The position numbers and the translations under genes are program-made. A DNA stretch of 64,000 nt from Mailhella sp. (GTDB taxonomy: Bacteria > Desulfobacterota > Desulfovibrionia > Desulfovibrionales > Desulfovibrionaceae). Each line of letters opens with the position of its first letter. The first letter of the stretch is position 1. Location: the NCBI GenBank assembly GCA_017408905.1, contig JAFQTU010000075.1:1-64000 (forward strand), read 5' to 3'. Of the stretch, positions 2,064 through 47,945 are shown in pieces. The notes below the pieces were generated by a model. The model was not told the DNA's origin and searched no databases. It was given only the letters and a program-made list of their open reading frames with translations.

Positions 2064-2208
2064 AACGTGTTGTTTCCTTTCGACGTCTTTCTTACGTCGG
2101 GTTAGAGGATTACCGAATCCCGGTCGAGCGGGACGGTCGCCCACGCTTTGCGAATGCAAAGCCTAGTGGGCTATATTTTGGGCCTTGGGCCAAGTCTGGG
2201 AGTGCGGA

Positions 2209-2456
2209 TTATCGAGGGGAGAAGGAAGGTCCATTGTCTTCGTGGGCAGGCGCAGGTTTGAGTGCGGCGAGGCGTTGCTGCCGCTCCATTTCGGCACGGA
2301 GAACCTCTTCCTGTTGATCGGCGAGGAACTTCTCGAAGCGCGGCTTTTCGTCCGGCTGGGCAATGAACTCTTTGAACGCTCGCGCCGGTTGTGGCTCTGG
2401 ATGCCGTGCAGGGATTCGCGCTTGAACTTATCCATATGAAGGACAAGGTACGACAT
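2209..2456 (-). pseudogene. MobV/Pre-type relaxase remnant with internal out-of-frame deletion
   Basis: The first 28 codons from ATG at 2456 read MSYLVLHMDKFKR followed by GIQSHNRRER, the characteristic N-terminus of MobV/Pre plasmid relaxases. Immediately afterwards the meaningful reading frame changes: a different minus-strand frame gives about 57 residues beginning AFKEFIAQPDEKPRFEKFL, a charged helical tail ending at TAA 2211-2209. Both pieces look like one relaxase with its whole catalytic middle deleted and the ends joined out of frame. No complete relaxase motif set remains, so the element should need a relaxase in trans. That the second piece is the relaxase tail is inference. Confidence 0.7.
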
Positions 2457-2465
2457 GGCGGCTCC

Positions 2466-2675
2466 CTAGTCATAGGCGATGCTCGCCGTGTTGATGCGCT
2501 CCATGAGGGCGCGGATATCCTCTACACGCCACGCTGTAGTGCGCGGTCCGAGCTTCACAGGTTTAGGAAAGATGCCACTGCGGCAGCTTTCCCACCACGC
2601 GCTCTTACTCACGGGGAAGATGTTGAGGTTTTGGGGCAGACGGACGTAACCGACTGCCGGCAGATCATGCTTCAT
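2466..2675 (-). CDS. AlpA-family excisionase-like regulator
   Basis: A 69-residue protein with the AlpA/MerR-like winged-helix pattern: VGYVRLPQNLNIFPVSKSAW leads into WESCRSGIFPKPVKLGPR and the closing WRVEDIRALMERI. AlpA proteins control integrase expression or act as excisionase-like architectural factors in P4-type satellites and integrative elements. A strong CGGAGG lies just upstream of the ATG at 2675. The gene follows the P4-type integrase in the same orientation, the usual partner, but about 260 bases separate it from the 59-codon ORF and a hairpin lies between, so it probably has its own promoter in the AT-rich stretch 2676-2860. Confidence 0.85.
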   Translation of the reverse strand: MKHDLPAVGYVRLPQNLNIFPVSKSAWWESCRSGIFPKPVKLGPRTTAWRVEDIRALMERINTASIAYD

Positions 2676-2860
2676 AAAAGAACCTCCGTTTTTTGAATTG
2701 GTTTACGGAGGCTCTATCACAATTTATCTTGTAAAAACAATATCTTTGATTTTGTACGACTGTGTTTTACGCCGGACTATCCTGCTTTATCCTGGACTAT
2801 GGAGCTTGCTGATTTCCCCAAAAAATTCTCAAAAAAATCTGAAAAAAGTTTAAAAAATAA

Positions 2861-2907
2861 CGACTCCCCACCTGCCACACATCGAAAATGCGGCAAATAA
2901 GGAGTCG
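2861..2907 (-). terminator. Terminator-like hairpin after the integrase and 59-codon ORF
   Basis: CGACTCC and GGAGTCG form the outer stem, with TGCCACA and TGCGGCA able to pair inside it. On the minus strand the stem is followed by TTATTTTTT, so it should end transcription coming from the integrase and the small ORF. Confidence 0.65.
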
Positions 2908-2935
2908 GTTATGGGTATCGGAAGAGGGAGAAGGC

Positions 2936-3115
2936 TTAGTCGAGCCACGCTCTCAGCATATCCATACTATCATGGCCGTGTTGGCGCATAGCATTCCGTT
3001 CCTCGTCCGTCCAACCAGTATCAGCGATGGTGAGCTGGGGGAAGCCTTCAGTTTCGGAAGCAGGAGTTTCAGCGGGAGCGTAGATTCGGGTTTCGGTATT
3101 GGCAGCAGTCATCAT
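2936..3115 (-). CDS. Small acidic protein translated directly after the integrase
   Basis: A 59-codon ORF begins at ATG 3115 and has an excellent GGAGG five bases upstream that overlaps the tail of the integrase gene, which ends 14 bases earlier. Two consecutive ATGs occur; the first is used here. The protein is acidic and without cysteine, ending in a helical segment with GWTDEERNAM and SMDMLRAWLD. I do not recognise a family. Tight coupling to the integrase and the terminator just downstream argue that it is genuinely expressed with it, perhaps as a small integrase modulator, but no motif demonstrates that. Confidence 0.65.
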   Translation of the reverse strand: MMTAANTETRIYAPAETPASETEGFPQLTIADTGWTDEERNAMRQHGHDSMDMLRAWLD

Positions 3116-3129
3116 GGTATCCTCCGGAG

Positions 3130-4326
3130 TTATTTAGTGTTGCGAAGTTCATCGAGATAGTCAGCCCATTTCTGGATGAGGTCTTTCCGCTCCGCCATGT
3201 AGTCGGCCCGGTTGTATGCGAGGCGTACCTCATCGGCGCATTTATGAGCGAGCTGGGCTTCTATGGTGTCGGGGCGGAAGTTCATCTCATTGAGCCGAGT
3301 GCTTGCCATCGCGCGGAAACCGTGGAGCGTCATTTTTTCCTTTGAGTAGCCCATACGTCTCAGAGCGGCCATAGGAGCGGCATCTGTGATAGGTGCACTG
3401 CTGGCGCGAGGGCTGGGAAAGAGCAGATCGTCTCCTCCAGTGTAGGCTTTCAGCTCATTCAACAACTGAACAACCTGCCTCGACAGCGGAACAGTATGCT
3501 CTCGCCTCATCTTCATACGGGTAGAGGGGATTTTCCACATAGCCTTGTCAAAGTCGAATTCTTCCCAGCGGGCAAGTCGCAATTCTGACGGGCGTGTGAA
3601 AACGTAGGGCAGAATTTTCAGGAAGTAGTAAACCGGGGTGTACCCTTCGTAAGCGTCGATGTCTCGCAGAAGGATGCCGATTTCCTTCGGCTCGGTTATC
3701 GCCGCATAGTGTGTCCTCTGTATCGAGGTCAGCGCGGCCGTAAGACCGCCTGCTGTATCGTACTGGACAAGGCCGGTGATCCTTGCATATCGCATCACCT
3801 GACTGCACAGGTGCATAATTTTATGAGCGGTTTCGTTATGCCCCAGCCTTTCTGCTTCACTGACAACGGTAAGAAAATCCTGAGGAGTCAGATCTGTAAC
3901 AGGCTTATGACCAATCAAGGGGAATATTTTCGTTTCGAGATAGCGTCTGAGTTTGGCGGCGTGTTTCTCGGAAAGCTTCAGCTCGTATTTTTGAAACCAT
4001 TCCGTGGCCACTTTCTGAAAAGTGCTGCAGGCTATTTGCTCCTCGGCTTTCTTCGCCAACTTGGCTTCCTTCTTGACCTGACCGGGGTCGATGTCTTTTG
4101 CCAGTAGCTCACGCGCTTTCTGCCTCGCTTCACGGGCATCGCTGAGGCTGACCTCAGGGTACTGGCCGAAGCTCAGGAGTTTCTGCTTACCGTCGAAGCG
4201 ATAGGCCATGTGCCAGAATTTTTTGCCGGAGGTCTTTACGAGGAGGTAGAGGCCTCCTCCGTCGGAGAGTTTCTGGGGCTTCTCTCCAGCTCTTGTGTTG
4301 CTTAATGTCGTATCGAATAAGGGCAT
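3130..4326 (-). CDS. P4-type tyrosine integrase (DUF4102 arm-binding domain)
   Basis: This 398-residue integrase has three parts. The N-terminal DUF4102 arm-binding domain (about residues 1-90) includes KLSDGGGLYLLVKTSGKKFW and the LSFGQYPEVSLSDAR signature. A core-binding domain spans about 105-200. The catalytic domain has its box I arginine in TRPSELRLARW near residue 245, HGFR near 331 and the nucleophile tyrosine in RLAYNRADY near 369. All expected catalytic residues are visible, so it looks active. It sits beside tRNA-Leu and is preceded by several TTGGTAT-type repeats that could be arm sites or an autoregulatory operator. The 59-codon ORF follows by 14 bases. Confidence 0.93.
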   Translation of the reverse strand: MPLFDTTLSNTRAGEKPQKLSDGGGLYLLVKTSGKKFWHMAYRFDGKQKLLSFGQYPEVSLSDAREARQKARELLAKDIDPGQVKKEAKLAKKAEEQIACSTFQKVATEWFQKYELKLSEKHAAKLRRYLETKIFPLIGHKPVTDLTPQDFLTVVSEAERLGHNETAHKIMHLCSQVMRYARITGLVQYDTAGGLTAALTSIQRTHYAAITEPKEIGILLRDIDAYEGYTPVYYFLKILPYVFTRPSELRLARWEEFDFDKAMWKIPSTRMKMRREHTVPLSRQVVQLLNELKAYTGGDDLLFPSPRASSAPITDAAPMAALRRMGYSKEKMTLHGFRAMASTRLNEMNFRPDTIEAQLAHKCADEVRLAYNRADYMAERKDLIQKWADYLDELRNTK

Positions 4327-4739: not shown

Positions 4740-7700
4740 TTATGCGTCCCCGGCGTTTTCCTGGCGGAGCTTGGCAAAGGCGAGGTAGCGGCAGAGGCGC
4801 TTTTCCGCCTCGTCCCGGCTCTGGGCAAAGAGCGCTTCGGCCTGTTCGGGGAAGGTGCGGCGCAGGGAGGCATAGCGCACTTCACCATCGAGGAATTCTT
4901 CATAGCGCAGGCTGGGCGCTTTGGAATCCAGCGTGAAGGGCTGTGCCTTGCGCGGGTCGTAGCGGTACAGGGGCCAGTAGCCTGAATCCACGGCGCGCTT
5001 CATCTCGGCCTGAACGCTGTGCATGCCGCCCTTGATGCCGTGGGCGATGCAGGGCGTGTAGGCGATGACGACAGACGGCCCGCGATACGACGAGGCTTCC
5101 TTCAGGGCCTTCATAAGCTGGTTCGGGTCCGCCCCCATAGCCACCTGCGCCACGTAGATACTGCCGTAGGACATGAACATGGCCCCGAGGTCTTTCTTGG
5201 CGCTTCGCTTGCCCGAGGCGCAGAACTGCGCTACCGCACCCAGCGGCGTGGCCTTGGAGGACTGCCCGCCCGTGTTGGAATAGACTTCCGTGTCCACGAT
5301 GAGCACGTTGATGTCTTCGCCCGAAGCAAGCACATGGTCGAGCCCGCCGAAGCCGATATCGTAGGCCCAGCCGTCGCCGCCGTACATCCAGAAGCATTTC
5401 TTGGAAAGCTGGTCGCGGCAGGCGAGGATGGCGTCCCGCACAGGCGAGGAGGGGAGCTTTTCCAGTTCGGCGGCAAGGGCGAGGCTTGCCGGTTCGGAGC
5501 TGTCGAAATCGTCGAAGGATTCGAGCCAGTGCCGGGCGGCCTCGGCGGCAGGGCCTTCGGGCAGGCAATCGAGCAGGGCTTCCACCCGCATTTTCTGAGC
5601 GGCCCTCTGCTGGCGGGCGGAAAGGAACATGCCGAGGCTGAATTCCGCATTGTTCTCGAAAAGCGAATTGGACCACGCCGGGCCCTGGCCGCGCCGGTTC
5701 GTAGTGTAGGGGATGCCGGGCATGGCCGAGCCCCAGGCCTGCGAACAGCCCGTGGCATTGGCCCAGTAGGCCCGCGAGCCGAAGAGCTGGGTGAGCAGTT
5801 TGGCGTAGGGCGTTTCGCCGCATCCGGCGCAGGCCGCCGAGAATTCGAGCAGGGGCTGGCGGAACTGGCTTCCCTTGACCGTGAAGGGGTCGAAAAGGTC
5901 GGGCCTGTCTGCAAGGCCGAGGCCGTATTCCCAGCATTCGGGCCTGTCCTTCGATTCGGAACGGCCCACCATGCGCAGGGCTTTTTCCGGCACGGGGCAG
6001 ACTTCGGCACAGCTTCCGCATCCCGTGCAGTCCGGCACGCTGATCTGGAGCGAGTAGGCCAGGCCCTCAGCGGCCTTGCCCTTGGCGGGGGCGCAGGTGA
6101 AGCCTTCGGGCGCGTTGGCGGTCTCCTCCTGTGTGAGGAGGTAGGGCCGGAGAACGGCATGGGGGCAGACAAAGGAACAGCGGTTGCACTGGAGGCATTT
6201 TTCCGCCTCCCAGCGGGGAACGCGCACGGCGATATCGCGTTTTTCCCATGCGGTAAGGCCCATGTCCATCTGCCCGTCGGCGTAGTCGAGGAAGGCGCTT
6301 ACGGGAAGTTCATCCCCGCGCTGGGCGTTGATGGGCTCCAGAATGTTACGCACCACGGCAGGCAGGCCCGGGCGTTCGGGCGCAGGGGCGTCGCAGGCAT
6401 CGAGCCAGCTCTCGGGAACCGCGACTTCCCGGACGTGTTCGATACCGGCGCGGATGGCGGCCACGTTGCGCGCCACGACCTCGTCGCCCTTGGCGAAATA
6501 GGTGCGGCGGACAGCTTCCTGCATCAGGGCTTCCGCCTTGTCCAGAGGGACGAAGCCGGGAAGATCGCCAGCGAGGCGGAAGAAGGCGGCCTGAAGGATG
6601 ATGTTGGTATGGCGGCCAAGGCCCAGCTCCTGTGCCAGCGCCGGGGCGTCGATGATCCACAGTCGGGCCTTCTTCTGCGCAAGGGTGCGCTTCAGCGCGG
6701 CGGGCAGGCGCAGGCCGAGCTCTTCGGGCTTCCAGCCGCAGCTCAGAAGGAAGGAGCCGCCTTCCTTCAGCTCGTCGGCCATAGCGTACCTGTCCACATA
6801 GGTCTGGTTGTGGCAGGCGACGACATCGGCGCGGCGCACGAAATACGAGGAGCGGATGGGGCGCTCCGCAAAGCGCAGATGCGACTTGGTGATGCCGAAG
6901 GACTTCTTGGCGTCGAATTCGAAATAGGCCTGCGCATAGAGGGGCGTGGCGCGGTTTATGATGTCCACGGTGTTCTTGTTCGCGCCGACCGTGCCGTCCG
7001 AACCGAGGCCCCAGAACTTGCAGCTCACCATGCGTTCGTCCAGCTCCAGAGGGCCGCCGGAGGGCAGGGAACGCCCGGTCACATCGTCGTCGATGCCGAT
7101 GGTGAAGCGTTCCTTCGGGGCGGGGCGGGCAAGCTCTTCGAACACGTCCCGTATCTGGCCGGGATCCACGTCTTTGGAGGAGAGTCCGTACACGCCGCCG
7201 AGGATGAGCGGCGAGCGCTCGCTGTGGGTGAAGGCCGTGCAGACATCCTGATACAGCGGTTCCCCGGCCGAACCCATCTCGCGGCATCGGTCGAGAACGG
7301 CGATGCGCTTCGCCGTGGCCGGTATGGCTTCGAGCAGATGGGCGCAGGAGAAGGGGCGGAAGAGGCGGACCTGAACGAAGCCGACCTTCCTGCCGCGGGC
7401 GTTGAGCCAGTCCACGGCGTCGCGGGCGCATCCGCCCACAGAACCCATGGCGACGACCACGTCCTCGGCGTCGGGCGCGCCGTAGTAATCGAAAAGGTGA
7501 TATTCGCGGCCCGTGATGCGGCCTATCTCGTCCAGATAGCCCTGCACGATGCCGGGCACGGCGTCGTAATAGCGGTTCGCGGCTTCCCGGGCCTGAAAAT
7601 ACACGTCGCCGTTCTGCACCGTGCCGCGAAGGCGCGGATGCTCGGGATTGAGGGCGCGGGCGCGGAAGGCGGCAAGGGCGTCCTTATCCACGAGGGCGGC

Positions 7701-27576: not shown

Positions 27577-27652
27577 GCCGAGGTAGCTCAGTTGGTAGAG
27601 CAGGGGACTGAAAATCCCCGTGTGGGCAGTTCGATTCTGTCCCTCGGCACCA
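27577..27652 (+). tRNA. tRNA-Phe (GAA anticodon), island integration site
   Basis: A 76-base tRNA with acceptor GCCGAGG/CCTCGGC and encoded ACCA. The anticodon stem GGGGA/TCCCC holds loop CTGAAAA, giving GAA for phenylalanine. The last 17 bases form part of the left attachment repeat of the island, so integration leaves the gene whole. Confidence 0.97.
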
Positions 27653-27656
27653 TTTT
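27636..27656 (+). repeat. attL direct repeat
   Basis: The 21-bp sequence containing CCCTCGGCACCATTTT recurs exactly at 47925-47945. It covers the last 17 bases of tRNA-Phe plus four further bases. Confidence 0.93.
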
Positions 27657-27778: not shown

Positions 27779-29461
27779 ATGCCAACTGGGACAACTGGAC
27801 TACGGTTGAAAAGTCAGACAAATTCTTCAGAGTTTGGTTACGGAAGTCACCTTTATCTGAAAGGCAGAATTTTTTATTTCCGCTACGTTCTTCCGAAAAA
27901 GCTACAAGCTGTTTTCGGAAAGAACGAAATCCGCTTGAGCCTCAACACTCCTTACCTCAAGGAAGCAGTGTTGCTCTCTCAGCGGCTTTTTTCTGTTTTG
28001 CTGGACTATAAGGAAGGGATACGACTTCCAAGCCGTACAGATCCAGCAAAGACGCTTTTTGCCGAACTCAACAGCCTCATTGAAAATCCCGAATTTCGAC
28101 GCGTCGAAAATTCGGAGAATGATACGAGACTTCGTTTTCAATCCCTGATTGAAAAGCTTCAGTCTTCTACGCAAGAAAGCTCGCCAACAACTCCTCATGG
28201 AGCTGTAGGTGAGCTTTTTGCGTTATTTCTCCCGCTACTAACTTCTGCACTTTCCGCAGCGAATGCCACTTCATCATTTCAGCAGCCAGGAAAAGAAGTG
28301 CTGACAGGATCAGCACTTATTGAGAAGTATGCGGCTAGTAAAATTTCTGAGAAAAAATGGCGTGAAAGGACAGTCAACGATCACAAAAATCGCCTGTATC
28401 GTCTTGTGGAAATCTTGGGAGACAAGCCGATAAATCAGTACAGCAGAGACGATATGCGCTATATGCGCGATACTCTACGAAGACTTCCTCCTAACAGGAA
28501 ATATGCAAAGGAATATCAAGGAAAGTCCATATCAGAATTACTGTGCATGAAGCATGAAAAGACGCTTGCGATCAAGACTGTCAATGACACTATGGAAGAC
28601 ATCTCTGGAATGTTCACTTGGGCAACAAGGGAGTTATATCTTCAAGTTAATCCTGCACGAGGGTTGAGCATCCGTGATGATGCACTCGATATTGAAAGAA
28701 GAAGGCCGTTTGATAACAAAGATATCGAGCGGATTTTTGCAAAGGAAATATACCTGCCAAGAAGCTTCATCAATCCTGCTTATTACTGGTGTCCGCTGAT
28801 AGCTCTGTTTACAGGCATGAGAATAGAGGAAATAAGCCAGCTCTATCTGTGCGATCTGTACGAGTGGAACGAGTCTGGTGTCTATGTATTCGATATAAAT
28901 AACAAGCCGAATAGCAAAGGTGAACAGGATAAGGAACTGAAAACGAAACACGCTAGAAGGCTAATTCCTGTTCACTCTACGTTGATAAAATTAGGACTAC
29001 TTGAGTATCGAAACGAAGTGGAGCTTCGTGGAGAAGAACGCTTGTTTCCTGAACTGCGTAAGACGAAGGGTAGCATGAAATACGGCATTGAAGTCGGAAA
29101 GCATTTCAGCAGATTCCTTGATAATAATCATATCCCACGAGAGAAGAAGACATTCCACTCATTCCGACATTCTTTTTCGCAGTTCTACAAGGAACGCCAG
29201 CTGCACGATGAGATGTTTAGGCAGCTTTTCGGACATGAAGAAACAAATCTCGCTGCAAAGCAGTACGGAACGGCCTTTACTCCAGTGCAGTGTGTGCAGC
29301 GCATTGAGATGTTGGATTTTCCTGTTGATGTGGAGAATATTGCGTGGAAGGGAACTGAGAAGACATCAAAGAAGCAAGAGAAGATTCAGCGACCAGTGGC
29401 GAGAAGAAAGTCAGCGGTTAGAAGGATTCGCTTGGCAGATGTGTCGGAGATGGAAAGCTAA
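27779..29461 (+). CDS. Island tyrosine integrase
   Basis: A 560-residue tyrosine recombinase, long for the family. The N-terminus has HLYLKGRIFYFRYVLPKKLQ, the pattern of DUF6538-type integrase heads. A SAM-like core-binding domain (about 180-290) precedes the catalytic domain. Box I arginine is in LFTGMRIEEISQLYL near residue 347, box II FHSFRHSFSQF near 460, then LFGHEETNLAAKQYG with the nucleophile tyrosine near 495. The C-terminal 50 residues are strongly basic. All catalytic residues are present. It lies directly inside attL of the tRNA-Phe island and reads inward. The start codon lacks a clear ribosome binding site. Confidence 0.92.
   Translation: MPTGTTGLRLKSQTNSSEFGYGSHLYLKGRIFYFRYVLPKKLQAVFGKNEIRLSLNTPYLKEAVLLSQRLFSVLLDYKEGIRLPSRTDPAKTLFAELNSLIENPEFRRVENSENDTRLRFQSLIEKLQSSTQESSPTTPHGAVGELFALFLPLLTSALSAANATSSFQQPGKEVLTGSALIEKYAASKISEKKWRERTVNDHKNRLYRLVEILGDKPINQYSRDDMRYMRDTLRRLPPNRKYAKEYQGKSISELLCMKHEKTLAIKTVNDTMEDISGMFTWATRELYLQVNPARGLSIRDDALDIERRRPFDNKDIERIFAKEIYLPRSFINPAYYWCPLIALFTGMRIEEISQLYLCDLYEWNESGVYVFDINNKPNSKGEQDKELKTKHARRLIPVHSTLIKLGLLEYRNEVELRGEERLFPELRKTKGSMKYGIEVGKHFSRFLDNNHIPREKKTFHSFRHSFSQFYKERQLHDEMFRQLFGHEETNLAAKQYGTAFTPVQCVQRIEMLDFPVDVENIAWKGTEKTSKKQEKIQRPVARRKSAVRRIRLADVSEMES
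28094..28109. repeat. 16-bp palindrome, copy 1
   Basis: TTTCGACGCGTCGAAA is a perfect palindrome inside the integrase coding sequence; the same 16 bases recur at 34379-34394 in an intergenic region. Confidence 0.7.
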
Positions 29462-34375: not shown

Positions 34376-34397
34376 AAATTTCGACGCGTCGAAATTT
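34376..34397. repeat. 22-bp palindrome, copy 2
   Basis: A perfect 22-bp palindrome with core TTTCGACGCGTCGAAA, shared with 28094-28109 inside the integrase gene. It lies between the DUF927 gene and the minus-strand cluster. Confidence 0.75.
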
Positions 34398-34660: not shown

Positions 34661-36286
34661 CTAAACTGTTACGCCATACTTGAGACACATTTCCTCGATA
34701 GACGTATTCAATTCAGTAACCTCAGAGTGAATACGTTCGTTCAGAGCTCGCCTTTTCTTTTCATCTTTAGCTCCAAATGGGTCCCACTTGTCAATGGCAT
34801 AAAGAGCAATGGCCGTGGATATGCCCGTAAGAATGCCAATGCAAATTGTAATCATCATATCCTTGCCAGGGAAGGATATGGGCACGAGTTCAGAGGCCGC
34901 TTCTTGAAGCGTAATACCTCCAACGCTGAGAGCACCTGTTACAAGGATTTTTAGAGCAGCATCCCAAACTGCTTCTCTGGACAATCCCTTTTCTGGGTAG
35001 AGCAAGGTCTTGGCAGCACGAAGAAGAACGAAGGTTCCTTCACGAATGATTCTGACGATATTTTTGGCAGTGGTCATAAAAATGTTAATGAATACGGTGA
35101 TAAGATTGGACAGGAATCCACTCACCGCTCCATCTCTGAAGGCTATGACAACCTGCTTCCAGTTCGAAAGAGTCTTGCTACCGATTCTCTGAAGCCTAAG
35201 TTTGAGGATATCAAGAGTCGTAGAATCCTGGTGTCCATTTTTGAAGCCATAGGACCAACAATCTGCCAGTTCATCAAAACAAGCATTTGTTAAATCGTAG
35301 CAGAAAAGGCCAAATGCCTGCTGAAAGCCCATTTTTCCTGCTTCCTGCAAAGATGTGATCGCAGTGTTTTTTATGAACTTATCACTGGTGTAGTAGGCCT
35401 TATTGACTGTATCATTATACTCCTTTCGAGCCTTTTCATCGAGTTCAGTCATTAACTCGTAATCAATTTCTTTCAATTCTTTCAGCTTACGTTCCAGTTT
35501 TTCTAGCGATTCTCTTTGCTTATCTGTCAGGCCATTTGCGTTTTGCTCCTTTTCTCTGAGTGCATTAATTTGGTCGACCAACTTCTTTTTTTTCTGTTCT
35601 GTGTCCTGAATGAATTCCACAACGGATTTCTTGCCTTTTGACCGGTTAATGCTGGGATTGGTGGCAACGAGATTGTCATCGGAGTTTGCCAGCTCAACGC
35701 CGTCCAACTCCGCAAGGGTACGACCTGGATCATTGTGAATTTCGTAAGCCGATTGAACGTGATCTTGGTCCGACTTTCCTTCTAGTTTGTTGCCTGTATA
35801 AGCATCTGTAAGATCACCATGTTCTCTTTTTTCCTTAATTTTCTTATTGTTTTCAATGTAGTTCTGGTGGGAATGATATTTATGAGAATCGTAGTCTTCT
35901 AAGTTTTGATATTTTAATTTTTCTTCCTCTGTAGCATAAACTCCCTCACGAACATTATGAATGGTATCGACATTGCCACCTATTTTATCATAGAGAGCAA
36001 TGAATTTACCTAGCCCAAGAGGATTGATGATGCTCTGGATGGTATGCTGACGACACTCGGAAAGAAGATCAGAAATATTCTTCTCTTCAAACTGTGCTTC
36101 TGTTTCGTTGATATAGATAGCAACTTCATTTTGAGAGACTTTTAGTTGAGATACAAGCCATTCTTCGGTGATTTGTTCCGGCAAGTTAGAGTCTTCCCAA
36201 ATAGCACTATTATTTTCAGTATACTTTTTTCTGACTGATGCTGTGCTATTGCACAAGGAGTAGAGGGTCTTCTGACTTTTTTTCAT
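34661..36286 (-). CDS. HNH-like nuclease fused to C-terminal membrane region
   Basis: A 541-residue protein with no family I can name. An acidic N-terminal region (1-150) is followed by a probable HNH fold near 160-230: AYTGNKLEG, then DQDHVQSAYEIHN, then LANSDDNLVATNPSINRSKG, which fits the DH...N...N-K pattern of HNH endonucleases without zinc cysteines. A charged coiled coil spans about 235-300. The last 200 residues are hydrophobic, with segments such as LSNLITVFINIFMTT, LVTGALSVGGITL and MMITICIGILTGISTAIALY. It is the last gene of a four-gene minus-strand cluster, 30 bases after the YaaW-like gene. A membrane-tethered nuclease suggests defence or immunity; this is inference. Confidence 0.75.
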   Translation of the reverse strand: MKKSQKTLYSLCNSTASVRKKYTENNSAIWEDSNLPEQITEEWLVSQLKVSQNEVAIYINETEAQFEEKNISDLLSECRQHTIQSIINPLGLGKFIALYDKIGGNVDTIHNVREGVYATEEEKLKYQNLEDYDSHKYHSHQNYIENNKKIKEKREHGDLTDAYTGNKLEGKSDQDHVQSAYEIHNDPGRTLAELDGVELANSDDNLVATNPSINRSKGKKSVVEFIQDTEQKKKKLVDQINALREKEQNANGLTDKQRESLEKLERKLKELKEIDYELMTELDEKARKEYNDTVNKAYYTSDKFIKNTAITSLQEAGKMGFQQAFGLFCYDLTNACFDELADCWSYGFKNGHQDSTTLDILKLRLQRIGSKTLSNWKQVVIAFRDGAVSGFLSNLITVFINIFMTTAKNIVRIIREGTFVLLRAAKTLLYPEKGLSREAVWDAALKILVTGALSVGGITLQEAASELVPISFPGKDMMITICIGILTGISTAIALYAIDKWDPFGAKDEKKRRALNERIHSEVTELNTSIEEMCLKYGVTV

Positions 36287-36316
36287 ATCTCACCTCACTT
36301 AGTTGGCATTGTCGTA

Positions 36317-37399
36317 TTATGCATCGTAACAAGTGTTTAGTTCCTCAAGTAACTCTTGTTCTATATGTTCTACTTTTTCATCAAACGAAATAATAACTTC
36401 TAATCTGTCTTTAAGTTCTTGTTTGCTAATGCCATAGTCACGGGCATTTTGAACAGAATCGCAGAACGAAGCATTGGAGACAAGTCGATTAATTTTATCT
36501 CTATTTCTATCATATATACCGCTCTCACCAAAAACCAACTGGATAATAGCATCTTTTTCAAGTCGACCTCTTATTTCCTGAATTTTATAATAATACATAT
36601 ATAGAGCGATGCATTTATTTTCATTTTTTCTTGTTTTTTCCAATTCGTCAGCAAGTTTCTTAGCTAGCTGATCAGCCTTTTCAAGGCGAAGGCGTTCGGC
36701 TGGTGTGAGTTTATATTTTTTTCTTAGCAGTGCTACAGTTGCACAGGCAGGAACTGTTACTCTATATGCAGGACCAGCAATTGATAGTACAGTAAGTCCC
36801 CATCCAAGTGGGCCAAGAAGCCAACCGGCACCACGGCCAATTACAAAAGCAAGAGCAGTATTTCCCAATAAAGGAGCTAGCGCTCCTGTTACAGAAAGAA
36901 CAACCATTGCCGTAAGACGATATGCAAGTATAGATCCAGTAGACATTAGAGCAGACAGTGCAGTAAGACCTGCTCCAGTCATCATTTGCGGACTGTACGG
37001 AATATTAACACTTATAAGAAGTCTTTTTTTCTCCTGATCGCTAAGTTTAAACCAAGCATCATTTAATATTTTATCAAGAAGACACTTCTCGATGTAAGAT
37101 GTACTACTTGATTTTTCATAATTTACGTCTAACTTATCGCAAACGTCTTTCAATACTTCACGATAAGAAACACCATGCCCAAAACGAAATATAGTCATAA
37201 CAGTATTGGCACCATATGTCTGTATTTGCTCTGCGACATCTTTCCAATAATTTTTTGAGTTAGGATTGGCTTGAGACAGCATCTGTCCAAGACGTTCTGA
37301 ACCATCATTGTCGTGAGTTATGACTCTAGCTAGCCCTTTTAAATCTTCCTTACTAATTGTAGCTAGAAATTCAAGATCAGTGTCAGCCCTGTAAGACAT
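36317..37399 (-). CDS. YaaW-like (UPF0174/DUF3944) membrane protein
   Basis: A 360-residue protein whose first 250 residues follow E. coli YaaW: an N-terminal DUF3944 head (DLEFLATISKEDLKGLARVI, then THDNDGSERLG), NYWKDVAEQIQTYGANTVM, HGVSYREVLKDVCDKLDVNY and the closing YRVTVPACATVALLRKKYK. The hydrophobic middle (about 150-225) has two or three membrane segments. A C-terminal extension of about 120 helical residues is absent from the 237-residue E. coli protein. The family's function is unknown. GGAG lies seven bases before the ATG. It lies 26 bases after the glycine-zipper gene and 30 before the HNH gene, so the three are co-transcribed. Confidence 0.85.
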   Translation of the reverse strand: MSYRADTDLEFLATISKEDLKGLARVITHDNDGSERLGQMLSQANPNSKNYWKDVAEQIQTYGANTVMTIFRFGHGVSYREVLKDVCDKLDVNYEKSSSTSYIEKCLLDKILNDAWFKLSDQEKKRLLISVNIPYSPQMMTGAGLTALSALMSTGSILAYRLTAMVVLSVTGALAPLLGNTALAFVIGRGAGWLLGPLGWGLTVLSIAGPAYRVTVPACATVALLRKKYKLTPAERLRLEKADQLAKKLADELEKTRKNENKCIALYMYYYKIQEIRGRLEKDAIIQLVFGESGIYDRNRDKINRLVSNASFCDSVQNARDYGISKQELKDRLEVIISFDEKVEHIEQELLEELNTCYDA

Positions 37400-37425
37400 A
37401 CGAATTCTCCATACGAGGTTGAAGG

Positions 37426-38994
37426 TTAACTGGCGTTAAATGATTTATGAATATAATCTCTACCTTTATCAGTGATTATGTATACCCACTGATTGTCTCT
37501 TGTTAGAACCTCAACGAGTTCATACTGAGATAGTGTATTAATAGCTCTAATGATTTCCAGATGCGAAATATTAGCTTTGAACTCCAATTCGTTAGATTTA
37601 CAACATTTATCCTCTTCATTAAGAATTCTTAGAATGTGTTGTTCTATGGATGTAGTAGTGATATCTCCTAATGGTACACTATTTTTGCTCTCCTCAAACA
37701 AGCTAAGAATGACATCTGTCATAACTTCATCGGATGGAATCGTGATATACATTCTAGATCGAGCTATTTCTTCAAAAGTTGGCTCAAGATTTTTATAAGC
37801 CCATTCCTGCCTTGTACTGTTAGACTTTGAAATGGCATACATTTTTCTTAGCCATGACGCAGTGATAATAGTTTTAATTTTTGCTATGACTGTATCAACC
37901 TCTTGTTCTGAAAAAAGATAGTCATAGCACAATTCAGCTAAAGCATTATTTACTAGCTCAAGCATTTCTTCAGCATCTTCCTTAATGAGTCCATCTAAGA
38001 CTGCTTTGGTGGCAGATGAAGAAACTGTACCAGCCGTGAAAGCTCCGATGATACCACCTGCGATTGCCCCAATGGTCGTACCAATCACAGGAACAGCCGA
38101 ACCAATTGCTGCACCAGCTGCGGTGCCTGCAAACCATCCTCCTGTGCCCCCAGCTACACCTGCTGCATTAACGGTTAGATTTTTGCCAAATTGTCCCCAA
38201 GAAATACTTTGCGAAATCAATGCCCTATAAAGATCAGGAGCAGAGACTGCAACCGTAGTTGCAATGGCAGTAATAGTATTGCTACGCAGTAGTTTCGCGG
38301 CGTTATTTAAGACGGCACCGCTAGGTAAAGTTTTTGTAAGAGCGGTTGAAGCCATTCTCTCAAGCTCCAAATGCCTCAAGTTACCATAATGAGTGGCTAC
38401 TTTGATCTCATTTAGTATTGGCCTTTTGTGTATATGTCTAGTCTTCATAAGGTAAGAAGAAATTAGCAGATCAACCGCTGAAATTCCTCCATCGTTAGCA
38501 ATCTCCCCAAAAGCAAATTTGACAGCATCACTATCAGATATTCCATTCCATTTGGAGTTTGCATGACAAATATAAAAAGAGAGTCCTGCAAGCCCCTTTG
38601 AGGTCACGAGATTATCAACACTAGAGAATTTTAATGCAGCAATACGATTTATTTTTGCCAATTTTTTAGCTTGTCGATATGTATACGTACCTTTTATGAT
38701 AAGCCCATTGCTTATCTTACTTATTATTTTTTCTAGGCTATCAAATTGATCAGTTGGTATTTCTACAGGAATCTTTCTCGAAAAAACAATTCCATAGAGA
38801 AATGTTTCAATAGCGGATGAAGCATAGTAGGAGTACTGTTCTCCATACGTTCTAAGAATTTTTTCTGTGGAGATGTTTGAAGCATTTTCAAATTTGTGCG
38901 GTATCAATATGCCATTTTTTTTGCACTCTTGAAGAATCTCTCGGACATCTTCCATAGTGATTCGTTCATTATCTTCCATGGTAAGAGTAGGCAT
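37426..38994 (-). CDS. Glycine-zipper membrane protein with C-terminal winged-helix-like region
   Basis: A 522-residue protein I cannot assign to a family. The middle (about 265-325) is a glycine-zipper region: AAGVAGGTGGWFAGTAAGAA and IGSAVPVIGTTIGAIAGGII. This pattern is seen in membrane-inserting or pore-like proteins. The N-terminal 250 residues are helical and partly basic. The C-terminal 90 residues (ISHLEIIRAINTLSQYELVE, then DNQWVYIITDKGRDYI) look like a winged helix. AAGGAG six bases before the ATG is an excellent start signal. It is the second gene of the cluster, 110 bases after the HTH gene. Confidence 0.7.
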   Translation of the reverse strand: MPTLTMEDNERITMEDVREILQECKKNGILIPHKFENASNISTEKILRTYGEQYSYYASSAIETFLYGIVFSRKIPVEIPTDQFDSLEKIISKISNGLIIKGTYTYRQAKKLAKINRIAALKFSSVDNLVTSKGLAGLSFYICHANSKWNGISDSDAVKFAFGEIANDGGISAVDLLISSYLMKTRHIHKRPILNEIKVATHYGNLRHLELERMASTALTKTLPSGAVLNNAAKLLRSNTITAIATTVAVSAPDLYRALISQSISWGQFGKNLTVNAAGVAGGTGGWFAGTAAGAAIGSAVPVIGTTIGAIAGGIIGAFTAGTVSSSATKAVLDGLIKEDAEEMLELVNNALAELCYDYLFSEQEVDTVIAKIKTIITASWLRKMYAISKSNSTRQEWAYKNLEPTFEEIARSRMYITIPSDEVMTDVILSLFEESKNSVPLGDITTTSIEQHILRILNEEDKCCKSNELEFKANISHLEIIRAINTLSQYELVEVLTRDNQWVYIITDKGRDYIHKSFNAS

Positions 38995-39104
38995 TCAGTT
39001 CTCCTTTTTTGTTCCGTAATAGCTGTTTTCTTCCAGACCTTGATTCCCGTCTACGCGTTTTTTCTGGAAATGTTGTCGCTTGGCAGGAGACAATTTATCG
39101 TTCC

Positions 39105-39683
39105 TTATTCATTCAGAAGAGGCTGTTCGTATTCGAGCAGAACCTCGTTGATAAGGAAAAAATCATAAATTTGATTAGTTATGAAATGTTTGATGATGAG
39201 ATCGAAGTTCACGTTGTCAGAAAGAGCAAGTTCAGCCTTCATCAAAAGCTCTTTCGTTTCATCCAAACTTAGTTCCAAAGCAATAGCGAAAGAGATAATA
39301 GTTCTTTTCTTTGGCCTGTATGTATTATTGCTGATAATCTTCGAGAAAACTCGTCTATCAACATTAGCCTTTGTATAGCATTCAGCATTATCCATTCCTT
39401 TTTCTCGAATTTTTCTCAGTAATAATTGAGAAAAACTTTCATGTTGACCAATGATCTCTTGGTCAAGTTGATCTTTTAAATGTGAGGTAAAATTATTTTT
39501 TTGCTTTGATATTGATTCAGATGTACGCGTATCAACGAATGCTGTGATTTTGGTAGACTGGATTTTGTCTGCCGTAGCAACCGTTGCTTGCTCCAAAATC
39601 GAAGAAGTAGCTCCTGCCGCTAGGCTTTTGGCGATTATGCGGCTAGTGAGTGAAGCTATCTGAATAGGTGTGAGCAGAGGCAT
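39105..39683 (-). CDS. HTH-type protein heading the four-gene cluster
   Basis: A 192-residue protein. The C-terminal 110 residues follow a recurring family pattern: SQLLLRKIREKGMDNAECY, NVDRRVFSKIISNNTYRPKK, IISFAIALELSLDETKELL and ALSDNVNFDLIIKHFI. The family is usually left unnamed or loosely called helix-turn-helix, and its role is not established. The N-terminal 85 residues are different and amphipathic. Its promoter region holds a 23-bp inverted repeat (39717-39739), which suggests autoregulation. It is the first gene of the minus-strand cluster and diverges from the Xre regulator. Confidence 0.7.
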   Translation of the reverse strand: MPLLTPIQIASLTSRIIAKSLAAGATSSILEQATVATADKIQSTKITAFVDTRTSESISKQKNNFTSHLKDQLDQEIIGQHESFSQLLLRKIREKGMDNAECYTKANVDRRVFSKIISNNTYRPKKRTIISFAIALELSLDETKELLMKAELALSDNVNFDLIIKHFITNQIYDFFLINEVLLEYEQPLLNE

Positions 39684-39716
39684 TTTCTGATCCTTCGAGG
39701 CTAAAATCAGTTTCCT

Positions 39717-39739
39717 AAAACTCCAATTTTTGGAGTTTT
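39717..39739. promoter_or_regulatory. Inverted-repeat operator candidate upstream of the four-gene cluster
   Basis: AAAACTCCAA and TTGGAGTTTT are separated by TTT, 34 bases upstream of the HTH gene start. On the minus strand a TTGACT (-35-like) directly precedes the repeat, so the repeat would overlap the core promoter. Confidence 0.6.
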
Positions 39740-39815
39740 AAGTCAATATATTTGAGAATAACGCTATATCCAAATTTAAAATTTCCTTCAAAATGTAAGT
39801 ATTAAGAGGTACATG

Positions 39816-40980: not shown

Positions 40981-41250
40981 ATGTCACAGGCGACTCTGAA
41001 TGTCCGCATGGATTCTCATCTGAAAAAACAGTTCGAAGACCTTTGCTGTGATTTCGGTATGACTCCCTCAACCGCAGTCAATGTTTTCGTCAAGGCTCTG
41101 GTGCGTGAACGTAAGATTCCTTTCGAAATCTCCGCTCCTCGTGATCCGTTCTATTCCGAGACCAACATGAAGCGGCTCCGTGAATCCATCCAGCAGCTTG
41201 AAGCTGGTAAGGGAACTGCTCATGAGCTGATTGAGGACAACGATGATTAA
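40981..41250 (+). CDS. RelB/DinJ-family antitoxin
   Basis: An 89-residue protein with the ribbon-helix-helix head of RelB/DinJ antitoxins: QATLNVRMDSHLKKQFEDLC and FGMTPSTAVNVFVKALVRER. The C-terminal part (ETNMKRLRESIQQLEAGKG) would wrap the toxin. AAGGAG precedes the ATG and a good promoter lies upstream. The last codons overlap the toxin start. The antitoxin neutralizes the toxin and represses the operon; here it probably stabilizes the island. Confidence 0.93.
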   Translation: MSQATLNVRMDSHLKKQFEDLCCDFGMTPSTAVNVFVKALVRERKIPFEISAPRDPFYSETNMKRLRESIQQLEAGKGTAHELIEDNDD

Positions 41251-41500
41251 GGTCTGGTCGGATCATGCCTGGGAAGACTACGTGTATTGGCAGACTCAGG
41301 ATAAAAAAATCCTGAAGCGTATCAACCAGCTCATCAAGGACATCGACAGAAACGGCTACGAGGGCATAGGCAAGCCAGAACCTTTGAAATACGAACTTCA
41401 AGGATTCTGGAGCCGTAGGATCGATGACGAGCACCGGCTGGTTTATCGTATCGAAGACAACAAGATAGAAATCCTCTCTTGTCGGCTTCACTATCAATAA
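41243..41500 (+). CDS. YoeB-family toxin (ribosome-dependent mRNA endonuclease)
   Basis: An 85-residue protein starting at ATG 41243 inside the end of the antitoxin gene. It has the YoeB/Txe layout: WSDHAWEDYVYWQTQDKK, INQLIKDIDRNGYEGIGKPE, LKYELQGFWSRRIDDEHRLV and the C-terminal SCRLHYQ. The catalytic glutamate, arginine and histidine positions of the family appear filled. Family members cleave mRNA at the ribosomal A site. Pairing YoeB with RelB/DinJ rather than YefM is a mix-and-match arrangement known from other toxin-antitoxin loci. Confidence 0.93.
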   Translation: MIKVWSDHAWEDYVYWQTQDKKILKRINQLIKDIDRNGYEGIGKPEPLKYELQGFWSRRIDDEHRLVYRIEDNKIEILSCRLHYQ

Positions 41501-42771: not shown

Positions 42772-42794
42772 AAACAACATCAAAGGAGTGAATG

Positions 42795-43040
42795 ATGGAA
42801 ACCATCCATGCTGATATGACTGTCAGTGTCACCGAGCTGAAGCGGAATTTTGCCAGTGTTCTCTCGACTGCCCAGAACACTCCTATCGCTGTACTCAACC
42901 ACAATAAGCCAGAAGCCTACCTGCTCTCCGCCAGACATTACCAGAACCTTATGGAAATGCTGGAAGATTTGCACGATAAGCACATCGTGGAAGAGCGCAT
43001 TGATGGTCCTTTTGTCGAGGTATCTCTCGATGAGCTATAG
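42795..43040 (+). CDS. Phd/YefM-family antitoxin
   Basis: An 81-residue protein; the second of two ATGs is used because it leaves six bases after AAAGGAG. It has the Phd/YefM head: MTVSVTELKRNFASVLSTAQ, TPIAVLNHNKPEAYLLSARH and YQNLMEMLEDLHDK. The C-terminal 20 residues would bind the toxin. It represses its own promoter with the toxin as co-repressor in known systems, and an inverted repeat overlaps the promoter here. The toxin start lies within its last codons. Confidence 0.92.
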   Translation: METIHADMTVSVTELKRNFASVLSTAQNTPIAVLNHNKPEAYLLSARHYQNLMEMLEDLHDKHIVEERIDGPFVEVSLDEL

Positions 43041-43314
43041 TCTCCGTTTTCATGAATTGGCCCTCAAGGAGTGGAAAAGGTTAGATTCCACACTTCAGGA
43101 GCAGTTCAAAAAGAAGCTCAAAGAACGGCTTGAAAATCCTCGTGTACCTTCAGCGGCATTGTCTGGTATGAAGGACTGCTACAAGATCAAGCTTAAAACT
43201 GCTGGTTGCAGGCTTGTGTATCGCGTGGAAGACGATATCGTTTATGTTACCGTCATTTCTGTGGGCAAGAGAGAGCGGTTACACGTTTATCGCAATGCCC
43301 AAAATCGAATCTAA
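43030..43314 (+). CDS. RelE/ParE-superfamily toxin
   Basis: A 94-residue protein starting at ATG 43030, overlapping the antitoxin stop by 11 bases. The RelE layout is visible: SYSLRFHELALKEWKRLDST, LQEQFKKKLKERLENPRVPS, CYKIKLKTAGCRLVYRVEDD and VISVGKRERLHVYRNA. The lysine- and arginine-rich surface and the conserved arginine in RLVYRV fit a ribosome-dependent mRNA interferase of the RelE/StbE branch. It is the second toxin-antitoxin pair on the island, on the other side of the nuclease gene. Confidence 0.92.
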   Translation: MSYSLRFHELALKEWKRLDSTLQEQFKKKLKERLENPRVPSAALSGMKDCYKIKLKTAGCRLVYRVEDDIVYVTVISVGKRERLHVYRNAQNRI

Positions 43315-43804: not shown

Positions 43805-44755
43805 ATGACACAAACAACACATGATGCCGGAGAGCTTTTCAGTGGAAAGCCTTCTGGCACAACGATTCTCGGCTACAGTGAGCCTTCCATTTACACGCCG
43901 AAAATTGACCCGCTGTACGCGTTCCACGAGTCCAGCCGCGATGTGATCGTCTGGTTTCTGATGGAGAAGGCTGACCCGTTGTACATCTACGGACCTTCTG
44001 GTTGTGGCAAATCGAGCCAGATTCGGCAAATCGCTGCTCGCCTGAACTATCCCGTTTTCGAAGCGACAGGACATGACCGTTTGGAGTTTCCTGATCTTGT
44101 TGGTCATCTGTCAGTCAAAGATGGCAACATGGAATTTCAGGATGGACCTCTGACGGTGGCGATGAAGCAGGGAGGAATCTTCCTGTTCAACGAAGCGGAT
44201 CTCTGTTCACCATCGACGCTTGCGGGGCTGAACACCATCCTCGATGGTTCTCCTCTTTGCATCGCAGAAAACGGTGGTGAACTCGTCGAGCCGAATCCTA
44301 TGTTTCGTTTCATCGTGACTGCGAACTCCAACGGCGCGAGTGATGACACTGGCCTTTATCAAGGTGTGATGAGGCAGAACATCGCTTTCATGGATCGCTT
44401 CATCGTAGTGGAAGTCGGCTATCCGAAGACGGAAGTAGAGGTGAATCTGCTCCAGCAGAAGTTCCCGCAGATTCCGACAGATATTCTCGGCAAGATGGTG
44501 GATTTCGCCAACGACGTTCGGAAGAACTTCATGGGCAACAGCACTGCACATGACGCACTCGAAGTCACGCTGTCCACGAGAACTCTCATTCGCTGGGCTG
44601 AGCTTACGATGGCATTTCAGCCTCTTTCTAAGCAGGGAATTTCTCCTGTCATGTACGCTTTGGATCGCTCTCTTGGATTTCGAGCTTCTCAAACAAGCAG
44701 AGTGGCTTTGGCTGAAATGGCTAAACGGATTTTCAATGACATTTCAATGAACTAG
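43805..44755 (+). CDS. CobS/MoxR-like AAA+ ATPase
   Basis: A 316-residue AAA+ ATPase of the MoxR clade, closest in pattern to cobaltochelatase subunit CobS. Walker A is IYGPSGCGKSSQIRQIAARL near residue 60, Walker B GGIFLFNEADLCSP near 122, then sensor 1 FRFIVTANSNG and the CobS-like MRQNIAFMDRFIVVEVGYP. A lid domain follows. There are no cobalamin genes nearby, so a cobalt-insertion role is unlikely. It forms an operon with a DUF3150 protein (8 bases on) and a CobT-like vWA protein, an ATPase-plus-vWA pairing that usually remodels a protein target. Confidence 0.9.
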   Translation: MTQTTHDAGELFSGKPSGTTILGYSEPSIYTPKIDPLYAFHESSRDVIVWFLMEKADPLYIYGPSGCGKSSQIRQIAARLNYPVFEATGHDRLEFPDLVGHLSVKDGNMEFQDGPLTVAMKQGGIFLFNEADLCSPSTLAGLNTILDGSPLCIAENGGELVEPNPMFRFIVTANSNGASDDTGLYQGVMRQNIAFMDRFIVVEVGYPKTEVEVNLLQQKFPQIPTDILGKMVDFANDVRKNFMGNSTAHDALEVTLSTRTLIRWAELTMAFQPLSKQGISPVMYALDRSLGFRASQTSRVALAEMAKRIFNDISMN

Positions 44756-45930: not shown

Positions 45931-47595
45931 ATGCTGAAACCTGAAATGCGATTGAAAGCTCTTCCTCTGGTAGCTTCCATGCTGGGGGACAAGCTCGGAG
46001 TGAAGGTCGTTTTCGGAGAGCAAGATACGGCCTGTACAGATGGACAAACTGTTTTTCTTCCTTCTTTGCCGATGGAAGAGGATGAACAGCTCTACAGGCT
46101 CGTTTCTGGTTACATCGATCACGAAGCCGCTCATATCCGCCACACTGATTTTGATGCGATGAAGGCTGCCAAGCTCAGTCCTGTTGCTCACCATATCTTT
46201 AATGTCATTGAGGATTGGCGGGTAGAGCATGAGCTGGTGAAAAGGTATCCTGGATGTCGTGAGCATTTTGACTGGCTCAACCGACATCTGTACCTGCCTA
46301 AATCGAAACGAAAAAAGAAGAAAGCTGGAGGAGAAAAACCTCCGGCTTTTTTCATTCTTGACTACATCCTCAATACGGTCAATCAGGCAGATGTTCCTGA
46401 ACTCGAAGAAGCAAGAAGGTCTGCTGGTCGTAGCATCGACAAAAATTGGCCGAAGTTGCGAGTGAAGATTGATGCGACTTTAGAGCAGATTCCAATGCGC
46501 TGTCTTTCGACCCGTGACAGCATCGAAGTGGCCTTAGAACTCATGACCATACTGGAAGCTGAAGCTCAAAACCAGACTACTAAACAAGCTCAGAATCAGT
46601 CGGTTTCAAGCTCTGAGGCTACTCAAGATGGAGTCGAAAATCAGTCCTCCTCGGAGTCGTCAAATGGATTATCGGAAGGCGAAAACAACCCGTCACAGCG
46701 AGGTGAAAATGCTGATCTTACCGCCGATTCCTCATTGGTCGATCTTTTATCTGCTGCTGAAGATTCTCTCCCGCAAAGCTCAGAAATAAAACTGAAGCAA
46801 GCCATTTTCGGCAAGAATCCCAATAGGAAGAAAGATGGATTTTTTATGGCTGCTGAGCATGAACTCGTTGCAGATAGGCTTTCTCCTGAAGTAGTTAGCG
46901 AAGCTCATTCCTCATCGCGTGCATTGAAAACGAGGTTTCAAGGACTTTTGCAGACTAGATTTCTACGGCGTGTTACTCCAGCGCGTCATGGAAAAACATC
47001 TGGAAGGCTTCTTCATCGGATTGTCACGAAGAATCCCAGACTGTTTCGAAAGGCAGATGAAGCTCTTGGGATTGATACCGCCATACACATCTTGTTGGAT
47101 CGCTCAGGTTCGATGGATAATCAGATTCAACTCGCGTCGCAGGCTTGCTTTTCGGTGGCTTCCAGCTTGTACGGAATCAAAGGCGTGAACGTCGCAGTAA
47201 CAGCTTTTCCTTCTGATTTAGGTACGGGTGATTTGAGGTCAGTTGCTCCTATTTTTCGGCATGGTGAACGTATTACGGATAAGTTTGCGGTTGGAGCTGA
47301 AGGAAGAACTCCACTTTCTGAAGCTCTTTGGTGGACGACAAAGGAACTTTTCAAACAAAAAGAACAGAGGAAAATTATCCTAATCATTTCAGATGGTCTT
47401 CCAGATGATCCTCCAATTGCTCTGAAAACGCTTTCGGTAATTCGTGACTTGGGAATTGAAATGGCAGGAATAGCCATTGATTCTTGGCAGCTTGCGAACT
47501 TCATCAACGCTCAAGAGAACATCACAGACATACGAGAACTTGCTCCTGCCATGTTCCGTATTCTTCAGCAACTTCTTCTTAAAAAGGAGAAATAA
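45931..47595 (+). CDS. CobT-like von Willebrand A domain protein
   Basis: A 554-residue protein. The N-terminal third has a zinc-protease-like GYIDHEAAHIRHTDF near residue 70 and FNVIEDWRVEHEL, as in CobT-type proteins. A Ser/Glu/Asn-rich linker (about 210-270) follows. The C-terminal vWA domain (about 380-554) has a complete MIDAS: DRSGSMDNQ, a threonine in GAEGRTPLSEAL and ISDGLPDDPP. With the CobS-like ATPase this is a MoxR/vWA machine. CGAGG lies six bases before the ATG. A GTG-initiated membrane peptide follows almost immediately. Confidence 0.9.
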   Translation: MLKPEMRLKALPLVASMLGDKLGVKVVFGEQDTACTDGQTVFLPSLPMEEDEQLYRLVSGYIDHEAAHIRHTDFDAMKAAKLSPVAHHIFNVIEDWRVEHELVKRYPGCREHFDWLNRHLYLPKSKRKKKKAGGEKPPAFFILDYILNTVNQADVPELEEARRSAGRSIDKNWPKLRVKIDATLEQIPMRCLSTRDSIEVALELMTILEAEAQNQTTKQAQNQSVSSSEATQDGVENQSSSESSNGLSEGENNPSQRGENADLTADSSLVDLLSAAEDSLPQSSEIKLKQAIFGKNPNRKKDGFFMAAEHELVADRLSPEVVSEAHSSSRALKTRFQGLLQTRFLRRVTPARHGKTSGRLLHRIVTKNPRLFRKADEALGIDTAIHILLDRSGSMDNQIQLASQACFSVASSLYGIKGVNVAVTAFPSDLGTGDLRSVAPIFRHGERITDKFAVGAEGRTPLSEALWWTTKELFKQKEQRKIILIISDGLPDDPPIALKTLSVIRDLGIEMAGIAIDSWQLANFINAQENITDIRELAPAMFRILQQLLLKKEK

Positions 47596-47924: not shown

Positions 47925-47945
47925 TCTGTCCCTCGGCACCATTTT
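47925..47945 (+). repeat. attR direct repeat
   Basis: The exact 21-bp partner of 27636-27656. It contains a duplicated 17-base 3' end of tRNA-Phe and marks the right boundary of the island. Confidence 0.93.

Follow-up and report, generated by a model that had tools for sequence, protein, structure and literature searches.

Introduction

At the infection vesicle, JukA of the Juk (jumbo phage killer, JukA/JukB) defense system senses early phage proteins; it recruits varied effectors to the entry site and is present in about a fifth of Gram-negative genomes (PMC13282480). A TerB-type domain occurs in the membrane-linked defense systems Shango and Bunzi (PMC10952713), and a review also places TerB domains in stress operons. 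Here, we describe a four-gene operon of Mailhella sp. in a 64,000-nucleotide (nt) stretch of contig JAFQTU010000075.1, which was analyzed as a whole (the window; listed coordinates are positions in it). The operon encodes a helix-turn-helix (HTH)-type protein (gene 1), a glycine-zipper membrane protein (gene 2), a JukA homolog (gene 3), and a protein of an HNH-type nuclease family with membrane helices (gene 4). Our best explanation, with a probability of roughly 0.6, is a horizontally acquired JukA-type anti-phage operon, in which an HNH-membrane effector is accompanied by a glycine-zipper protein and a dedicated repressor.

Gene 3 is homologous to JukA across the whole JukA domain, and described JukA works with diverse effectors. 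Unlike in Juk, an HNH-membrane protein is the proposed effector, JukA has an additional domain at its C-terminus, and the operon also encodes an HTH regulator and a glycine-zipper protein. Gene 4 matches PDC-M40B of the PADLOC candidate system PDC-M40, but its partner in the operon is JukA. The original prediction had proposed a PADLOC run to exclude known systems. This run matched no JukB-named model to the four proteins (E ≤ 1; effectors vary according to the review) and no PDC-M40A model to the other three (E ≤ 1). Judged by its sequence, the operon is neither PDC-M40 as catalogued, which includes M40A, nor strict JukAB, which includes JukB. That prediction had recognized no described system of this composition. 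The exact four-gene set was indeed seen nowhere else, but JukA is described and gene 4 falls in a PADLOC candidate family, and the operon is therefore a variant rather than a wholly new system. If true, the pairing of JukA with a membrane HNH nuclease would give a recently described defense a new arrangement, and it ties the candidate family PDC-M40B to a described immune sensor.

Shango and Bunzi share with the locus a TerB-type domain and a membrane-linked defense setting, and a BnzA-like protein adjoins a relative of gene 2; no Shango or Bunzi model in PADLOC matched the four proteins. In the literature searched, PDC-M40 was not mentioned, and no text linked BnzA with TerB.

Organization of the operon

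As had been predicted, four minus-strand genes lie in a row between a palindromic operator and a terminator. The open reading frames (ORFs) are separated by gaps of 110, 26, and 30 nt in the order of genes 1 to 4, and an AGGA/GGAG-like ribosome site precedes every one of the four starts.

39716-39740, minus strand: operator-like palindrome TAAAACTCCAA-nnn-TTGGAGTTTTA, 11-bp perfect arms, 3-nt spacer
39105-39683, minus strand: gene 1, 192 amino acids, HTH-type protein
37426-38994, minus strand: gene 2, 522 amino acids, glycine-zipper membrane protein
36317-37399, minus strand: gene 3, 360 amino acids, JukA homolog (DUF3944/YaaW)
34661-36286, minus strand: gene 4, 541 amino acids, HNH-type nuclease family, C-terminal membrane helices
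34607-34651, minus strand: intrinsic terminator at the operon end, 16-bp perfect inverted repeat followed by U's

The palindrome lies 33 nt upstream of the gene-1 start, overlaps a possible TTGACT −35 box, and has a single match genome-wide with up to 2 mismatches allowed. The terminator hairpin has a folding energy of −27.1 kcal/mol (z −5.8).

Gene 3 is a JukA homolog with a C-terminal extension

Residues 2-230 of gene 3 matched PADLOC JukA at 5.1e-48, which places the protein with JukA of the Juk system, and Pfam DUF3944 was matched at 1.2e-12, above the Pfam cut-off. Profile matches and comparison with homologs divided the protein into two parts.

36704-37399, minus strand: JukA domain of gene 3, residues 1-232
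36320-36703, minus strand: C-terminal extension of gene 3, residues 233-360, weak TerB similarity

Plasmid JukA homologs align to at most residues 1-232, and the JukA proteins without a nuclease link that were read have 242-254 amino acids; gene 3 carries 130 residues more. A TerB-like profile was built from the JukA-less partners of gene-4 homologs. The extension aligned collinearly with TerB-like domains and scored 16.7 bits against this profile, while the best of 2000 shuffles reached 10.5. Compared with the PDB, the profile ranked TerB structures first (2jxu, E 0.017). In the AlphaFold2 (AF2) model, the extension is all-helical with a predicted local distance difference test (pLDDT) score of about 75-95. 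We regard it as a probable degenerate TerB-like adaptor domain and, by analogy with described JukA, gene 3 as the probable phage sensor.

Gene 4 carries conserved HNH-type residues

Gene 4 matched PDC-M40B, a catalogued candidate defense family, at 3.6e-60. Two conserved segments were found in an alignment of 53 homologs from several phyla.

35948-35980, minus strand: signature GGNVDTIHNVR of gene 4, residues 103-113 (53-member alignment)
35636-35806, minus strand: HNH core of gene 4, residues 161-217 (D175 H176 ... N205 L206 ... N214 .. K217; alignment and AF2 model)

Within the signature, G103, G104, V106, and T108 are invariant (53/53), followed by N111 and R113 (52/53) and H110 (50/53). 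The core has the DH...N...N pattern, with H176, N205, and N214 present in all 53 homologs and D175 in 51, and its N-x3-T-x4-N-R-x-K spacing is the same as in the Cas9 HNH domain. The AF2 model averages a pLDDT of 80.8 and reaches about 95-97 within the core. It contains the beta-beta-alpha arrangement, formed by strands 173-176 and 206-209 and helix 211-217 at a pLDDT of about 97. The model and hydrophobicity indicated that the C-terminal regions are helical and partly hydrophobic. The PDB gave no match to gene 4 by sequence or by fold. Pfam HNH_4/GmrSD_C matches were obtained for 3 of 10 slices, the best at 0.004-0.005. Gene 4 is a probable membrane-anchored HNH-type nuclease and the probable effector of the operon.

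A PHROG match of gene 4 named 'released upon infection' falls in its coiled-coil region. Many records name the gene-4 family cobalamin adenosyltransferase (e.g., plasmid record 5971-7542), a name that looks wrong.

JukA recurs beside gene-4 homologs

The neighborhoods of 80 species-level gene-4-family loci were scanned in 13-kb segments with local profiles. An iterated JukA profile drifted through the C-terminal domain to TerB-only proteins; therefore, the JukA count was repeated with a profile limited to the JukA domain. Partner genes were of the M09A type in 60 loci, WYL in 45, TerB-like in 24, and JukA in 8, the last within 6 kb of the gene-4 homolog. All but a few of the 77 loci with a recognized gene-4 homolog hold a PDC-M09A-type or TerB-like gene. 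A rough estimate, which uses the frequency of JukA of about a fifth among Gram-negative genomes, gave ~0.05 chance co-locations in the 80 segments against the 8 seen, which are non-independent.

Operons that resemble that of the window were found in Enterobacterales (Raoultella, Citrobacter, Yersinia, and Mixta), where a WYL gene, a JukA/TerB fusion, and a nuclease follow in this order. JukA precedes the nuclease in both types, at 9-30 nt overall and 9-11 nt in Enterobacterales. The C-terminal part of the Enterobacterales JukA directly upstream of the nuclease matches the TerB-like profile at 1e-12 or better, and the extension of gene 3 occupies the same position. In contrast to the window, these operons have a WYL regulator and JukA proteins of 403-412 amino acids with a clearer TerB-like domain; no gene-2 homolog was found in them. 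In a maximum-likelihood tree of gene 4, their nucleases are sister to that of the window (99/98), and this clade is nested in a 100/100 clade of mostly TerB-linked loci. Two Cryptobacteroides loci encode JukA, the nuclease, and a TerB-like protein in separate neighboring genes. Because this nuclease pair falls in the other half of the tree, the sequences suggest that JukA joined the gene-4 family at least twice.

As to the co-occurrence check that had been proposed, the JukA/HNH-membrane pair recurs, but not the four-gene set, and known defense genes lie beside gene-4 homologs. Among 103 flanking proteins, matches at 1e-25 or better included RADAR RdrA/RdrB, Azaca ZacB/ZacC, type I restriction, HmaC, DrmD (DISARM), MkoC, MzaA, and reverse transcriptases. 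The Raoultella plasmid copy adjoins DUF262, SNF2, helicase, and methyltransferase genes in a plasmid defense island. Pairs of M09A and HNH-membrane genes resemble the operon in that a homologous nuclease directly follows a hydrophobic partner gene, but the partner is not JukA and the nuclease clade is distant from that of the window. Such pairs are also carried by the Aeromonas jumbo phages LAh10, D3, D6, and D9. In LAh10 the pair stands in tandem (4961-7557 of the phage sequence) and is possibly used against competing phages. Many records name the M09A partner a chemotaxis protein, which also looks wrong.

The defense role proposed in the original prediction is well supported, at the level of sequence, by family membership (JukA and PDC-M40B) and by the known defense genes beside the gene-4 homologs. 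A function other than phage defense, such as plasmid or conjugation exclusion, general stress, or an island-stabilizing toxin-antitoxin unit, appears very unlikely. JukA relatives are widespread, TerB domains are also placed in the stress operons mentioned above, and two RelB/RelE-like pairs share the island; however, the repeated association with known anti-phage systems, the carriage of a related pair by jumbo phages, and the described role of JukA argue against such a function.

Genes 1 and 2

The original prediction had assigned families to all four genes. DUF3944, the glycine zipper, and the HNH-like motif with helices were recovered, whereas the HTH of gene 1 was supported by a weak match (PADLOC Control_protein, 4e-4). 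The C-terminal half of gene 1 is a domain that ends Firmicutes macro-domain/ADP-ribose deacetylase proteins (38-51% identity by tblastn). Gene 1 is probably a dedicated repressor of the operon.

Two segments were distinguished in gene 2.

38017-38172, minus strand: glycine-zipper stretch of gene 2, residues 275-326, GxxxG/AxxxG-rich
37429-37665, minus strand: probable C-terminal winged helix of gene 2, residues 444-522 (PHROG and PADLOC)

The glycine-zipper stretch is hydrophobic at residues 297-321 and conserved among relatives, as in a glycine-zipper membrane protein. The C-terminus matched a PHROG transcriptional regulator at 3e-5 and a PADLOC winged helix at 9e-4. Only a handful of relatives were found, on a Lactococcus plasmid, in one genome of the phylum, and on one prophage contig. 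These bear an N-terminal GADR-VD...IQTKY stretch, which we infer to resemble a PD-(D/E)XK motif; the corresponding residues are altered in gene 2 of the window, which appears from its sequence to have lost this nuclease-like motif. Homology of gene 2 to the PDC-M09A family was tested and was unsupported (probability 3%). The prophage relative has 650 amino acids (contig 2087-4039), retains the nuclease-like motif, and lies between an endolysin and a recombinase, the usual prophage place for cargo genes.

The distribution of these relatives bears on whether the locus is one unit. It could consist of a JukA/HNH-membrane pair (genes 3 and 4) and the unrelated genes 1 and 2, which share a promoter by an accident of insertion. 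JukA with an HNH-membrane gene recurs elsewhere without gene 2, one gene-2 relative stands alone among prophage late genes, and the Lactococcus relative is accompanied by a WYL and a BnzA-like protein. On the other hand, the window has a single operator, short gaps, and a single terminator, and homologous loci often hold an additional glycine-zipper-like M09A protein. We consider this division doubtful.

Proposed mechanism

At the level of sequence, the operon anatomy, the JukA homology, the conserved HNH-type residues, and the recurrent linkage of JukA or TerB to the gene-4 family are established. For a single JukA-type anti-phage operon, we propose the following course. Gene 1 would repress the operon through the palindrome. 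As in described JukA, gene 3 would detect phage entry at an early stage, at the inner membrane, and, by analogy, would engage or recruit gene 4 through its C-terminal TerB-like extension. Gene 4 may then cut DNA near the site of phage DNA entry. The combination of JukA, a TerB-like domain, and a membrane HNH nuclease suggests such a handover from sensor to enzyme, with DNA cut at the entry point. Gene 2 might serve as another membrane component that forms either a pore or an anchor; its role is the weakest point of the mechanism.

The original prediction had read the cluster as abortive infection, which is one option. Once triggered, genes 4 and 2 would injure the chromosome and the membrane of the host, so that the cell is halted before phages are released, with JukA or the HTH protein restraining them in uninfected cells. 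A nuclease and a glycine-zipper membrane protein under their own repressor are consistent with this, as are the WYL-type regulators that adjoin gene-4 homologs. However, published JukA systems are described as acting on the early infection vesicle by recruiting effectors (PMC13282480), a mode that need not kill the cell, and the sequence does not decide between cutting of phage and of host DNA. Abortive infection is in our view unlikely.

Several points weigh against the reading as a JukA-type anti-phage operon. The complete set of four genes (HTH, glycine zipper, JukA, HNH-membrane) did not turn up outside the window. The 8 JukA-linked loci are not 8 independent events, the tree suggesting at least two, and the scan of the 103 flanking proteins was made without a control set. 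At the protein level, gene 3 itself matches TerB weakly (E 0.0035 among 1026 ORFs), the Pfam HNH_4 and GmrSD_C matches of gene 4 are weak and below the curated cut-off, and gene 2 has very few relatives. Foldseek comparison of the gene-3 and gene-4 models with the PDB gave nothing significant, only long-helix noise, and genes 2, 3, and 4 yielded no useful hit when searched by sequence against the PDB.

More tentatively, and at somewhat less than even odds, the family may form a widespread modular immune platform, in which exchangeable sensors are connected to one membrane-anchored HNH effector family by way of either an M09A protein or a TerB-like adaptor. JukA would have joined this platform at least twice, and the window would hold a four-gene version with an added nuclease-dead glycine-zipper membrane component.

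The tRNA-Phe island

The operon lies on a 20.3-kb island (27636-47945), and its predicted link to tRNA-Phe was borne out by the 3' end of tRNA-Phe, of which a 21-bp stretch is repeated exactly on both flanks.

27636-27656, plus strand: left att repeat, in the tRNA-Phe 3' end, 21-bp exact direct repeat
47925-47945, plus strand: right att repeat, 21-bp exact direct repeat

The operon DNA was absent from other genomes of the same family (Desulfovibrionaceae), and JukA was not found in the 394 other genomes among the 395 sampled from the phylum; the operon was therefore probably acquired horizontally.

Other features of the island were also recorded. The two RelB/RelE-like toxin-antitoxin pairs, read from translations, lie at 40981-41500 and 42792-43314. 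A 16-bp perfect palindrome, TTTCGACGCGTCGAAA, occurs twice (28094-28109 and 34379-34394; 0.03 expected by chance), first within the integrase gene and then directly after a DUF927 gene, and the surrounding 22-bp repeat is 95% alike. A sigma-54-type activator encoded at 29525-31273 matches PADLOC RtcR/PspF CARF-linked models in its AAA and HTH parts (6e-28). At the right end of the island, a CbbQ/MoxR-type AAA protein (43805-44755) is followed by a CobT-like VWA protein (45931-47595), with a weak IetA match.

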